NCBI RefSeq assembly: GCF_004145405.1
Contig: NZ_SELQ01000004.1
Coordinates: forward strand, 186,001 to 250,000
Origin: Salipiger sp. IMCC34102
GTDB lineage: Bacteria > Pseudomonadota > Alphaproteobacteria > Rhodobacterales > Rhodobacteraceae
Reading direction: 5' to 3'
DNA: 64,000 nt
The position numbers and the translations under genes were made by a program. The notes under the pieces are model-generated. The model saw nothing but the letters and a program-made list of their open reading frames with translations, was not told the DNA's origin and did not search any database. Below are positions 52,652 through 57,763 of this stretch, piece after piece (positions within the stretch are counted from its first letter, which is position 1; each line of letters begins with the position of its first letter).

Positions 52652-53347
52652 TCAGCCCGCGTTCCCACGCGTCCCTCCGCCCAGCATCTGCGTGCCCAGC
52701 TCGCGGATCAGCTTGCGCCGCATCGCCGCCTCGTAATCCTCGAAGCTGTTCGCAACCTCGATGAACGCCCCGGGACCGCGGATCACTTCCTCGCGGAAGA
52801 AGGGGATCAGGTCGACCTCTCCTTCGAAATCGGCGGCGTTGACCACGAGGCCGTTGACCGTCACGCCCTCGAAGGGAAAGGCGGCATAGGCTTCCGCCGG
52901 GCCGAAGCCTTCGTTGCTGACCCCGTCGCCCGCCACGTCGATGGTCGAGAACAGGCAGGAAGGTCCGCTTTGCAACAGGCCCGCCGCGTGACCCAGCGCA
53001 TAGCCCAGGGCGGTCGGCAAGTCGTCGCGGCTGCGCAGGCTGCCTGCCACGCGGGCAGACAGATCCGCCAGATCGTCAGGCCCTTCGATGACGGTCCAGG
53101 GCGCCAGGCTCACCTGGTTCCAGCGCCCGGACCATTCGAAGATCGTCACGGCGACGGGGTCGGGGCTGGCGAAGAAGGCCGCGGCCACGTCCTCTGCCAC
53201 CAGCGCCGCCGCAAGGCCCTGCCGCTGCAGCGCGTCCTCCTGCGCATCCACCGAAGAGGACACGTCCAAGGCCAGGACCAGCGCCAGGCGACAGGCCTCC
53301 GCCGGGGTGGCCAGGGGGGCCAGCCCTGCAAGCCAGCCCCAGCGCAT
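52652..53347 (-). CDS. DUF1194 secreted VWA-type protein, copy 2
   Basis: The 231-residue paralogue of the protein at 40183 has a signal peptide (cleavage near AEA), the MIDAS motif DVSSS at residues 28-32 and the DUF1194 ending GPGAFIEVANSFEDYEAAM. The start at 53347 overlaps the gloA stop by one base (TGATG), so it is translationally coupled to gloA. Confidence 0.9.
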   Translation of the reverse strand: MRWGWLAGLAPLATPAEACRLALVLALDVSSSVDAQEDALQRQGLAAALVAEDVAAAFFASPDPVAVTIFEWSGRWNQVSLAPWTVIEGPDDLADLSARVAGSLRSRDDLPTALGYALGHAAGLLQSGPSCLFSTIDVAGDGVSNEGFGPAEAYAAFPFEGVTVNGLVVNAADFEGEVDLIPFFREEVIRGPGAFIEVANSFEDYEAAMRRKLIRELGTQMLGGGTRGNAG

Positions 53348-53835: not shown

Positions 53836-55266
53836 TCAGAACGCGGAGCGCAGATCGAAGCCCAGGCTGATATAGTCGCGATCGAAGAGCGCGATGTCCG
53901 ACCGGGTGCGGCTTGCTTCCAGTTGGGCCACGGGACGGAACCCGTAGTATTCGACCTGCCCGATCTCGGCCTCCGCCGTCAGGGTCAGCGTGTCGTCGGT
54001 CCGGGGACCTCCCGTCAGCGACGAGAACGTGAAGTCGCGCCGCTCGACCGATGCGCCGAAGGCCAGACCCAGACCCAAGACCGGCGCGTCCAGCAGGTAG
54101 TCGACCCCGGCCGTGACGGAGTCGTACTCCCGCTCGGGGCTGTCCGACCGGCTGACCCGTCCGCTCAACCCCAAAGAGAGCAGATTGCCCCCCTGCAGGA
54201 CCCGGTCGACTGATCCGCCAAGGCGGAAACTGAACGCGTCGTCGAAATCATCCTCCGCAAAGGTCTTCTGCGCACCCGCGAACACGCGCAACAGCGACCG
54301 GTCGTCGACCTGCACCGACTGTCCGACGCTGGTATCAAGAAACTGCGTGTAGGGACTGCCGCCGTACCAAGTCTGCCCGATCCGGGCGTTGAAACTGGTC
54401 GGCGCAAGCCCCTCCCGCAGGATCCGGCGGTGGCGCAGGCCGAAGGACAGTTGCACGAAGGCGTAATCCGACCCGTCAATATCGCGCAAACCGGCGGCGG
54501 AGTCGAAATCGCCTCTCGCCTCCTGCGCGCGTGCGGCCTCCTCCAGGTCGTCGCGGGCGCCCGACGACAGGGTATAGGTCGTGGTATCCAGCGAGACATC
54601 CGCGAAGGTGGTCGCGACCTCGCTTTGCGACAGGCGGTAGCGGGCGGTGCCGCCCAATTCGAACGCGAGGCCCGAGAGCGCCTGCGCATCGCGCGACAAC
54701 GTCAGCTCGAACGGCAGGCCCAGCAGGAAGGAGGTCTCCGATTGCGATCCGTTGTTGATGTTGGACGAGGGCCGCACCCCGAACCGCAGATCCAGCGAAA
54801 GCGGGTTCAACTGCCGCACCACGCGGAAATCCTCGGCGACAGCCTCGGCCTCGACATCGTCCGGGGCCAGTTGGCGCGCGCGGCGCAGCCAGACCTGTGA
54901 CCGGGTGTAGCGGCCCAGCTCGAAGGTGGCACGCGCCGCGGTCCGGGCCGCGACGAAGCGGATTTCGGGATCCTCGGCCGCGGCAAAGGCCCGCCCGGCC
55001 AGTTCCGCCGTCTGGGGCAGGTCGCCCTCGGCCAAGGTGATCCGCGCGGCGAGGATCAACGCCACCGGGTCCTCGGGGTCGCGGATCAGCAGCGCCTCCA
55101 CGATCCGCCGGGCGTCTTCCAGCGCGCCCGCGGCGATTAGCTCGGCGCCCAGCGCGCGGGTCTCCTCCAGCGTGAGGTCCTGCGCCTGCGCAGGTCCCGT
55201 GGAAAAGGTCCCAAGCGCGGTCACGACGGCGATAGCGCGCGTCAGTCGACGTAACGCGGTGCTCAT
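53836..55266 (-). CDS. Slam-like outer-membrane surface lipoprotein translocon
   Basis: The 476-residue protein has a signal peptide (1-28), an N-terminal TPR-like helical domain (about 30-155: ALEDARRIVEALLIRDPEDP, AAEDPEIRFVAARTAARATF) and a C-terminal beta-barrel of about 315 residues ending in Phe (SAF). The barrel begins LRFGVRPSSNINNGSQSETS, the pattern of Slam (surface lipoprotein assembly modifier, DUF560, T11SS) proteins. Slam proteins move surface lipoproteins across the outer membrane. It follows its probable substrate by an ATGA overlap. The match to Slam is from architecture and motif; no alignment was done. Confidence 0.85.
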   Translation of the reverse strand: MSTALRRLTRAIAVVTALGTFSTGPAQAQDLTLEETRALGAELIAAGALEDARRIVEALLIRDPEDPVALILAARITLAEGDLPQTAELAGRAFAAAEDPEIRFVAARTAARATFELGRYTRSQVWLRRARQLAPDDVEAEAVAEDFRVVRQLNPLSLDLRFGVRPSSNINNGSQSETSFLLGLPFELTLSRDAQALSGLAFELGGTARYRLSQSEVATTFADVSLDTTTYTLSSGARDDLEEAARAQEARGDFDSAAGLRDIDGSDYAFVQLSFGLRHRRILREGLAPTSFNARIGQTWYGGSPYTQFLDTSVGQSVQVDDRSLLRVFAGAQKTFAEDDFDDAFSFRLGGSVDRVLQGGNLLSLGLSGRVSRSDSPEREYDSVTAGVDYLLDAPVLGLGLAFGASVERRDFTFSSLTGGPRTDDTLTLTAEAEIGQVEYYGFRPVAQLEASRTRSDIALFDRDYISLGFDLRSAF

Positions 55267-56264
55267 CGGGTCAGGATCACGCCGCCGGTTTCCTTCATGG
55301 TGGACCCTTCCTCGCGCGGGTCTTCCGCCGTCACCGTGACCACGCCGACGACGCGGCCGCCGGGCCGCTGGGTCGTGTCGCCCGCGATGATGCCCGTGAA
55401 GGTGCCTTCCTCGAAGACCTCGCGTTCCCCCTCCCGGAAGATGTAGTTGACGACCGGCACGTTGATCTCTCCGTCGGCATTGAGCGATGGAATGCCTTCC
55501 TGGATGGTGATGGTCAGGTCGGGTGGTCCGTTCTCGAAGACCCGAACCCGGTCGCCGTTCTTGTCGAAGTAACGACGGTCCGTGACACGGCCCTTCACCG
55601 CGTCGTTCGCGTTGAAATCCTCGAAGTCGATGTCGAGGGTCATGTTGCCCCTGACGTATTCCAGCCCCGCCCGGCCCGGACTGAAAATGCGCAAACCGGC
55701 GTAAGGACCGGAGAACGTCGCCTGTCCGCTATCGGGCAGGACGACACCGCCGTTGCGTTCGTAGACATAGCCGCCGGCGCCGAAATTCGAAAACCCGCCG
55801 GAGCGCACGATGGCAAAGCTGACCTGCGGTTCGCCGTCGACCAGGCCCCCGCCTTCGCGATAGAGCGCGATGTAGGGGGTCAGCTGTTCGACCGGATCGC
55901 CCGTCAGGAAATCGGGGGTACGTGCCTGGGCCTGGTAGACCCGTGCCCCGCCCAGGGTGGCCAGGTCGCCATCCTTGCGGCGATAGACGTTGGGCCCGTC
56001 GAAGCCCAGGTTGTCGACGCGGAAGGTGTCGTTGTCCGCGTTGTAGGACACGTCGGTGACCAGCCCGCCGCCTTCATCGTCACGGGGCTCGAACCGGAAG
56101 ATGTCCGAATTCGCGCTGACCTCGTCGGCCTCGCTGCCCGGCGGCAGGTCCAGGTCCGCGTCCGGGCCCTGTGCCTCGGGATCGTCGATGATGGGCTGGC
56201 CGTCGCCGCAGGCGGTCAGGCTCGCCAATAGCGCGGCGGTGGTCAATATGCGGATCATCGTCAT
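55263..56264 (-). CDS. Surface lipoprotein with TbpB-like C-terminal barrel; probable Slam substrate
   Basis: The 333-residue lipoprotein has a lipobox (SLTAC, Cys 19), an acidic linker (to about residue 50) and a C-terminal beta-rich domain resembling the TbpB/Hpu-type barrel. Within it are GGYVYERNGGVVLPDSGQAT, TFSGPYAGLRIFSPGRAG, and the ending GTFTGIIAGDT and KETGGVIL. This barrel is the part recognised by Slam. The gene precedes and overlaps the Slam-like gene. The ligand is unknown; there is no TonB receptor nearby. Confidence 0.82.
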   Translation of the reverse strand: MTMIRILTTAALLASLTACGDGQPIIDDPEAQGPDADLDLPPGSEADEVSANSDIFRFEPRDDEGGGLVTDVSYNADNDTFRVDNLGFDGPNVYRRKDGDLATLGGARVYQAQARTPDFLTGDPVEQLTPYIALYREGGGLVDGEPQVSFAIVRSGGFSNFGAGGYVYERNGGVVLPDSGQATFSGPYAGLRIFSPGRAGLEYVRGNMTLDIDFEDFNANDAVKGRVTDRRYFDKNGDRVRVFENGPPDLTITIQEGIPSLNADGEINVPVVNYIFREGEREVFEEGTFTGIIAGDTTQRPGGRVVGVVTVTAEDPREEGSTMKETGGVILTR

Positions 56265-56453: not shown

Positions 56454-57272
56454 GTGCGCCAATATCTCGATGCCCTGCGCCTGGTGCGCGACACCGGTCT
56501 GCGGTCGACCGACCGGACCGGTACCGGCACCATCAGCCACTTCGGTCTGCAAAGCCGCTACCCCCTGACCGACGGCTTCCCGCTCGTCACGACGAAGAAG
56601 CTGCACCTCAAGTCGATCGTGCACGAGCTTTTGTGGTTCCTCTCGGGCGACACCAACGTGCGCTACCTGCAGGACAACGGCGTCTCGATCTGGAACGAAT
56701 GGGCGGACGAGAACGGCGACCTCGGCCCCGTCTACGGCCACCAGTGGCGTCACTTCCCCGATCCGCGGCGGGCCGACGACGGGACCGTCCTCCTGGGCGA
56801 GGTCGACCAGATCGCCCGGCTGGTCGAGGCGATCCGGACCACCCCGGACAGCCGGCGCCTCATCGTCTCGGCCTGGAACCCGGCGGAGGTCGACGCCATG
56901 GCCCTGCCGCCCTGCCACACGCTCTGGCAGGTGCGCATCGCGGGCGGCAAACTGCATCTGCAACTCTACCAGCGGTCCGCCGACATGTTTTTGGGCGTGC
57001 CGTTCAACATCGCCTCCTACGCGCTGCTGGCACATATGCTGGCGCATGTGACGGGCTACGCGCCGGGCGATTTCATCCACACGATGGGGGATGCGCATAT
57101 CTACCTGAACCATCTCGAGCAGGTCGACACCCAGCTTGCCCGCGACCCCCGGCCGTTGCCGCGCCTGCGGATCACGCGGGATGTCTCCTCGATCTTCGAC
57201 TTCCGCTACGAGGATTTCGCCTTCGACGGCTACGATCCCGCGCCGGGCATCCGCGCGCCGGTGGCGGTCTGA
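56454..57272 (+). CDS. thyA: Thymidylate synthase
   Basis: The 272-residue enzyme methylates dUMP to dTMP with methylene-THF. The catalytic cysteine is Cys 154 in LPPCHTLWQ, and the [20 protein letters not shown] and HIYLNHLEQ motifs are present. The start is GTG with AGGT upstream. Its stop overlaps the folA start by one base, since DHF formed here is recycled by FolA. Confidence 0.97.
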
Positions 57273-57763
57273 TGCTGACGCTGATCGTCGCCCGCGCGGC
57301 GGATGGCGCCATCGGGCGGGACGGGGATATCCCCTGGCACGCGCCAGAGGATCTGGCCATGTTCCAGCGCGAAACCACCGGCGGCGCGCTCGTCATGGGA
57401 CGCCACACCTGGGAGAGCCTGCCGGTCAAGCCGCTGAAGAACCGGCTGAACATCGTCGTCTCGCGCGACACGTCGCTTGCGGAGCACGTCCATCCCGATC
57501 CCGTCGCGGCCATCGCGGCGGCCACGGCGGCCGGCTACACCCGGATCTACGGCATCGGCGGTGCCGGTATCTACCGCGCGCTCGTGCCGTTGGCCCACCG
57601 CCTGCTCATCACCCAGGTGGTCCTGCAGGTGCCGGACGCCGACACGTTCTTCCCAGCCCTGGACGACCGCGACTGGGTCGAGGTCTCGCGCCGACCGATC
57701 CGGTCGGCGGCGCCGGCCTGCACCTTGTGCGAATACCTCTCCGCCCGGCCTCAGGGCTTGTAG
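57272..57763 (+). CDS. folA: Dihydrofolate reductase
   Basis: The 163-residue enzyme reduces DHF to THF with NADPH. Motifs are ARAADGAIGRDGDIPWHAPE, MGRHTWESLP and YGIGGAGIYRALVP. It forms the usual thyA-folA pair. Its last 13 bases overlap the convergent cold-shock gene. Confidence 0.95.
   Translation: MLTLIVARAADGAIGRDGDIPWHAPEDLAMFQRETTGGALVMGRHTWESLPVKPLKNRLNIVVSRDTSLAEHVHPDPVAAIAAATAAGYTRIYGIGGAGIYRALVPLAHRLLITQVVLQVPDADTFFPALDDRDWVEVSRRPIRSAAPACTLCEYLSARPQGL

Follow-up and report, generated by a model that had tools for sequence, protein, structure and literature searches.

The window analysed here is a stretch of 64,000 nucleotides from Salipiger sp. IMCC34102, corresponding to positions 186001-250000 of contig C41 (NZ_SELQ01000004.1) in a 3.58-Mb genome of 46 contigs. 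On its minus strand lie two overlapping genes, one for a lipoprotein (333 residues, 55263-56264) and one for a Slam-like outer-membrane translocon (476 residues, 53836-55266). With a probability of roughly 90%, the pair is a one-translocon, one-cargo module of the type 11 secretion system (T11SS, or Slam), of the type found in marine Rhodobacteraceae/Roseobacteraceae. A preliminary description, made from the letters alone, had proposed a Slam-like translocon next to a TbpB-type lipoprotein, and that proposal is borne out by matches of the family profiles, a predicted 14-strand barrel in the translocon, structural matches of the lipoprotein, adjacency and co-occurrence. The sequence, the gene overlap, the lipobox, the fold models, the pairing, the co-occurrence and the presence of a Skp homologue were computed. 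The window adds a further copy to a kind of gene pair that has been reported before from marine alphaproteobacteria; what is new here is the counts of pairing and co-occurrence.

Sequence and predicted fold of the two proteins

The translocon begins with an N-terminal signal peptide, continues with TPR helices and ends in a barrel (all coordinates of the pair refer to the minus strand). Its structure was modelled with AlphaFold2 on an alignment of 67 members, obtained from 71 translocon loci after removal of the incomplete, broken or barrel-only L040, L082, L117 and L118. In the model (pLDDT 94.0), a helical domain resembling TPR repeats is followed, after residue 155, by 14 strands of at least 11 residues. 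The predicted periplasmic TPR domain covers residues 33-153 (54808..55170) and is delimited by the model helices; TPR_19 reaches 23.1 bits against a cut-off of 25, and TPR_14 also falls just under its curated cut-off. The predicted barrel spans residues 156-476 (53839..54801) up to a terminal phenylalanine, and its first strand comprises residues 156-167. The motif PSSNINNG (residues 166-173, 54748..54771) forms the end of this strand and the positions just beyond it. N169 and N171 are invariant among the aligned translocons and P166 and G173 nearly so, and the motif is therefore not a product of chance. The C-terminus reads LRSAF, with F476 nearly invariant. Both the SNINNG barrel start and the terminal phenylalanine had been picked out beforehand and prove conserved, and the strand count of the model agrees with a Slam-type barrel.

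The putative membership of the translocon in the Slam/PF04575 family is seen only through its relatives. PF04575 matches 61 of the 67 aligned translocons at E≤0.1, a set in which the window protein is counted but unmatched, and several orthologues at the same locus exceed the curated cut-off of 22 bits, namely those of G037 (37.1 bits), G019 (36.8), G053 (34.4), G081 (33.3) and G077 (33.0). Direct searches of Pfam, NCBIfam and PDB sequences with the window translocon returned TPR or unrelated weak matches only, and a profile of the translocon alignment run against PDB sequences gave TPR proteins among its best 60 matches. As a query, the window translocon finds matches in 66 of 120 genomes of the family. 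In its own genome a single translocon match is full-length, the 12 others at E≤1 being partial and nearly all confined to the TPR part, and a single lipoprotein match is strong.

The lipoprotein starts with MTMIRILTTAALLASLTAC, a signal peptide with the lipobox LTAC at residues 16-19, read directly from the sequence (56208..56264). Cys19 is invariant in an alignment of 60 lipoproteins, whose rows were chosen for having a lipobox: 66 lipoproteins were collected, and five without one (L034, L079, L082, L089, L106) as well as L119 were left aside. Its closest named relatives, 61% identical, come from three genomes of Loktanella, which suggests a bacterium of the marine Rhodobacteraceae/Roseobacteraceae type. 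The C-terminal beta-barrel region, at about residues 164-332 (55269..55775), has eight main strands in a DSSP reading of the model, with an approximate boundary. The motifs GGYVYERNGG and ETGGVIL, singled out in the preliminary description, are conserved in the relatives, with G165 invariant and E325 and G327 nearly invariant. The lipoprotein model has a pLDDT of 89.1, and a Foldseek search of the PDB returned ten matches at E≤0.001, all of them factor H binding protein (fHbp) or TbpB. The E values run from fHbp (2.2e-4) and the TbpB C-lobe (7.7e-4) to hemophilin (1.6e-3), NHBA (4.8e-3) and HpuA (1.5e-2). The predicted barrel thus fits the label TbpB-like, yet its best structural match is fHbp.

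Sequence profiles reach the same families through the relatives. At E≤1, FHBP_C is matched by 23 of the 60 lipoproteins and TbpB_B_D by 14, and when 30 of the 60 were scanned one by one, 12 matched either family at E≤0.1. The lipoprotein of L086 matches FHBP_C (PF08794) over residues 178-297 with 29.9 bits, above the curated cut-off of 28.1. Direct searches of Pfam, NCBIfam and PDB sequences with the window lipoprotein returned nothing. The lipoprotein profile found nothing below an E value of 0.7 among PDB sequences; a lipoprotein entry, 1ys5, presumably fHbp, appeared at 1.4. A distant Slam of the same bacterial family, at L119, scores 115.9 bits with PF04575 and has two upstream lipoproteins above the TbpB_B_D cut-off. 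These were taken up by an iterated profile, but the profile of the 60 aligned lipoproteins, built without them, finds nothing in the L119 genome at E≤1e-5, and for this reason the bridge to TbpB_B_D is weak. A separate subtype is made up by 15 of the 60 aligned lipoproteins (e.g. L104:7600-8508 and L114:7943-8869), in which two cysteines a few residues apart follow the last barrel strand and replace ETGGFILYR.

Pairing of the genes and their neighbours

In the window the two genes share four bases, the stop and start codons overlapping as ATGA (55263..55266), as had been noticed at the outset. The same neighbourhood recurs widely. With only the translocon as bait, 60 loci were fetched, and 55 of these carry the lipoprotein, always on the same strand; the window and the loci found via the lipoprotein (L031-L040) are excluded from this count. 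The intergenic distance lies between -20 and +60 bases in 53 of 58 aligned lipoprotein-translocon pairs. The translocon search had given 71 match rows, consisting of the window's own, the 60 fetched regions, one second piece within a fetched region and nine rows unfetched at first (two in G114, and one each in G087:C126, G032, G015, G115, G021, G101 and G037:C95), of which G032 and G115 were added later. The lipoprotein is lacking at the other five (L071, L073, L110, L118 and L120). At L110, in genome G079, a lipoprotein of 225 residues with a weak profile match (E 3.3e-4) occupies the cargo position (L110:7866-8543), and L120 represents a second, distant Slam in G086.

At the level of whole genomes, 120 members of the family were searched. 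The lipoprotein was found in 60 (E≤1e-5) and the translocon in 73 (E≤1e-10), all 60 lying within the 73, and the lipoprotein is absent from all 47 genomes without a translocon match (Fisher p 1.8e-21, uncorrected for relatedness). When 13 genomes whose translocon matches are distant or partial are set apart, the lipoprotein is found in 59 of 60, the exception being G079 with its weakly matching lipoprotein; these 13 were chosen by hand and the result depends on the choice, the ratio becoming 59 of 61 if G067, one of the 13, whose barrel-only translocon occupies the usual locus, is counted. Distances among translocons and among lipoproteins are correlated over 58 pairs (Mantel r 0.68, reached in 0 of 2000 permutations), a figure that carries no control for species relatedness and was not used as evidence.

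A few genomes depart from the common arrangement. In G060 (L073) and G061 (L071), the translocon occupies its usual place with no lipoprotein next to it, and weaker relatives of the lipoprotein are encoded elsewhere (L130:5607-6689, L131:6060-6842, L132:2839-3711). In G115, where the locus lacks the translocon, the glyoxalase gene comes immediately after the lipoprotein gene; a distant translocon lies on another contig (L133:5641-6765, L134:5286-6398).

In the order of minus-strand transcription, the lipoprotein gene is followed by the TPR-barrel translocon, a glyoxalase-family gene and a DUF1194 gene. The glyoxalase-family gene (lactoylglutathione lyase-like, PF00903; 53347..53775, minus) lies 60 bases downstream of the translocon and is a conserved neighbour in 55 of the 60 fetched loci. 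The DUF1194 gene (231 residues, PF06707, 222 bits; 52652..53347, minus) overlaps the end of the glyoxalase gene with its start, and a relative is a conserved neighbour in 37 of the 60 loci. On the other side, a divergent thymidylate synthase gene, ThyA by profile match (56454..57272, plus), begins 189 bases from the lipoprotein start and is followed by a dihydrofolate reductase-like gene (57272..57763, plus), named from a reading of its sequence without a profile. With the window's ThyA as reference, a relative is present in 8 of the 60 fetched loci. Close to its start, the DUF1194 protein has a DVSSS stretch that follows the DxSxS pattern given for metal-ion-dependent adhesion sites in Grossman 2025 (PMC12282271).

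Alternatives and the proposed export route

Several results weigh against the assignment to T11SS. The match to PF04575 that had been expected fails for the window translocon (Pfam scan of the protein alone, E≤10) and for its whole genome (E≤0.001; 14 control genomes likewise had none), and stands for the relatives. The parallel expectation for the lipoprotein has fared similarly: the window protein has no Pfam match at all, FHBP_C and TbpB_B_D included, and the support lies in weak matches of relatives and in L086 above the FHBP_C cut-off; of the 30 lipoproteins scanned singly, 18 had neither family at E≤0.1 and one exceeded a curated cut-off. The ten best structural matches of the lipoprotein have modest TM-scores (0.31-0.35 by query length, at a root-mean-square deviation of 6.8-10.4), as expected for a shared barrel combined with a different N-terminal domain, and unrelated barrels stand between or after the cargo matches in the same list (BFA1 at 5.1e-3, PsbO at 1.6e-2). 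The co-occurrence counts, as stated, are uncorrected for relatedness. Among solved structures, the translocon model is closest to BcsC (9b8a, E 2.1e-11; also 6tzk) and then to general porins, no Slam being among the best 50 Foldseek matches; a polysaccharide secretin, 4y25, which we take to be PgaA, ranks eleventh. Finally, according to the abstract of Grossman 2025, the verified T11SS proteins all belong to cluster 1 (PMC12282271).

The structural ranking raises the possibility that the translocon secretes exopolysaccharide in the manner of BcsC or PgaA, with the lipoprotein as its accessory subunit. Such exporters likewise combine periplasmic TPR helices with an outer-membrane barrel. However, 14 strands are predicted here, against 16 predicted for the PgaA-type cluster (Grossman 2021, PMC8406197), and the partner is a lipoprotein of cargo type, with a modelled fold like that of Slam cargo. 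Relatives of the translocon also match PF04575, although some PgaA homologues carry this family too (PMC8406197). The genes profiled around the pair were ThyA, glyoxalase, DUF1194, MarR-type, helix-turn-helix and aminotransferase genes; no polysaccharide synthase was among them, and no search was aimed at synthases. Taken together, an exporter of this kind is hardly credible. It is also conceivable that the translocon exports another protein, such as DUF1194, and that the lipoprotein is a partner facing the periplasm. DUF1194 was proposed as a possible cargo of this cluster by Grossman 2025 (PMC12282271), and its frequency at the fetched loci, given above, is in keeping with this. Nevertheless, it is the lipoprotein whose modelled barrel has the fold known from proven Slam cargo, which adjoins the translocon at nearly all of those loci and which was never found without a translocon in the 120 genomes. 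Moreover, two species without the lipoprotein and the TPR domain have retained the DUF1194 gene. We consider this second arrangement very unlikely.

A further alternative accepts the lipoprotein as cargo and assigns it the role of TbpB or HpuA, in which it would capture a carrier of metal or haem on behalf of a TonB-dependent receptor. The structural matches to TbpB, hemophilin and HpuA speak for it, and the window's genome does have three PF07715 and three PF00593 matches, on contigs C10 and C40, corresponding to three TonB-dependent receptors away from the pair. No such receptor was found on contig C41 (PF07715 at E≤1e-5, PF00593 at E≤1e-3), in line with the preliminary description, which had seen none beside the pair. 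At the same thresholds, 27 of the 60 lipoprotein-bearing genomes have no PF07715 match and none of these 27 appears in the PF00593 list, a loose first look that a very divergent receptor could escape; G006, of the window's genus, is one of the 27. Across the 120 genomes, the presence of the lipoprotein is unrelated to that of PF07715 (odds ratio 0.93, p = 1). Because so many genomes show no receptor and no association exists, an arrangement like that of TbpB and TbpA is unlikely as a general rule, and for the window lipoprotein, too, partnership with a receptor appears unlikely.

The T11SS reading suggests the following route, in which lipidation, periplasmic holding, transport through the barrel, surface exposure and the roles of the domains are taken over from studied Slam systems. 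The lipoprotein would be exported by Sec and lipidated at Cys19. Once in the periplasm it would be prevented from folding, a task that probably falls to Skp (an OmpH/Skp homologue is encoded in the genome). The TPR domain of the translocon would receive it, and the chain would pass through the 14-strand barrel. Outside, the C-terminal eight-strand barrel may fold and display the N-terminal binding domain, anchored by its lipid. The displayed domain would most likely bind a ligand or a surface directly, without a TonB-dependent partner receptor. This follows the general Slam mechanism, in which unfolded cargo is handled with Skp and without ATP or proton motive force (PMC9090332).

Known systems and barrel-only relatives

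The closest described counterpart is the marine cluster 3 T11SS locus, which has the same gene set and occurs in the same bacterial families as the window. Grossman 2025 reports a syntenic locus in 11 Rhodobacteraceae/Roseobacteraceae strains, with thymidylate synthase, cargo lipoprotein, T11SS protein, glyoxalase and DUF1194; its co-occurrence list also names aspartate aminotransferase, CptB, threonyl-tRNA synthase, dihydrofolate reductase and thymidylate synthase (PMC12282271). The 11 compared loci have a flavin-dependent thymidylate synthase, and in its position the window carries ThyA together with the dihydrofolate reductase-like gene. In that study, cargo lipoproteins with a C-terminal eight-stranded barrel were present in 10 of the 11 compared strains (PMC12282271), compared to a homologous lipoprotein at 55 of 60 loci here. 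By sequence, genes with barrel domains were rare, TbpBBD occurring in 8 of 145 loci, and three explanations were left open for the marine T11SS: the cargo is seldom adjacent, too divergent to detect, or lost (PMC12282271). Since a homologous lipoprotein stands at 55 of 60 translocon loci, the present counts favour a cargo too divergent to detect. No experimental study of the cluster 3 pair was found in the literature searched, which comprised open-licence papers.

The neisserial Slam1 and Slam2, with TbpB, fHbp and HpuA, likewise consist of TPR repeats and a predicted 14-strand barrel, and their cargo, lipoproteins with a barrel of the TbpB/fHbp type, is often encoded next to them, as in the window (PMC5449769, PMC9090332). 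The window pair differs from them in lying below Pfam detection, in its N-terminal domain and in having no linked TonB-dependent receptor. The paired loci counted here, from bacteria in many of which no TonB-dependent receptor was detected, provide a ready set of translocon-cargo combinations for testing the contributions of the cargo barrel and the TPR domain.

In one genus, two species, represented by L118 and L142, appear to have lost the adjacent cargo gene and the TPR domain together. At L118 (genome G067; L118:6284-7330), an open frame of 348 residues encodes a translocon that has a signal peptide and lacks the TPR domain. The glyoxalase and DUF1194 genes follow immediately downstream, no lipoprotein adjoins the translocon, and G067 has no lipoprotein match genome-wide (E≤1e-5). 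L142 (G120; L142:6913-7923) has the same arrangement, the absence of the lipoprotein referring here to the locus. Five genomes of this genus were searched, and the other three (G121, G122, G123) have a full-length translocon and an upstream lipoprotein, in G122 a frame of only 217 residues. Neither a remnant of the G123 lipoprotein (by tblastn) nor a significant match to the TPR half of the G123 translocon was detected in L118 or L142. According to the relevant part of Hooda 2017, no sequence of the barrel domain alone was obtained there (PMC5449769).

The two barrel-only genes share 60% identity; their nonsynonymous divergence (dN) is 0.295 and their synonymous divergence (dS) 0.783. The resulting ratio of 0.38 speaks against plain decay. 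It is, however, above those of the adjoining glyoxalase (0.040/0.469) and DUF1194 (0.131/0.729) genes, so constraint on the barrel-only genes may be relaxed. That cargo and TPR domain are missing together fits participation of the TPR domain in handling the cargo, and the two species look like natural deletions that link one to the other. The persistence of the barrel points to some other use or to a gradual loss. A broader proposal, that the barrel of the marine translocon serves a purpose of its own besides cargo export and that the cargo, where present, is a class of Slam cargo working without a TonB-dependent receptor, is possible, though on balance we doubt it.

Among the places listed in 394 genomes, with at most five candidates scored per genome, no further intact barrel-only translocon was found; the contig fragments G087:C126 and G249:C1016 stood outside this follow-up. 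Three candidates with short frames were set aside, that of G273 for a frame break and a lipoprotein of its own, and those of G249 and G137 as cut at contig ends. Translocon genes broken into two frames occur in G038 (L082:6318-7718) and G273 (L151:5996-7420), and a lipoprotein gene adjoins both.

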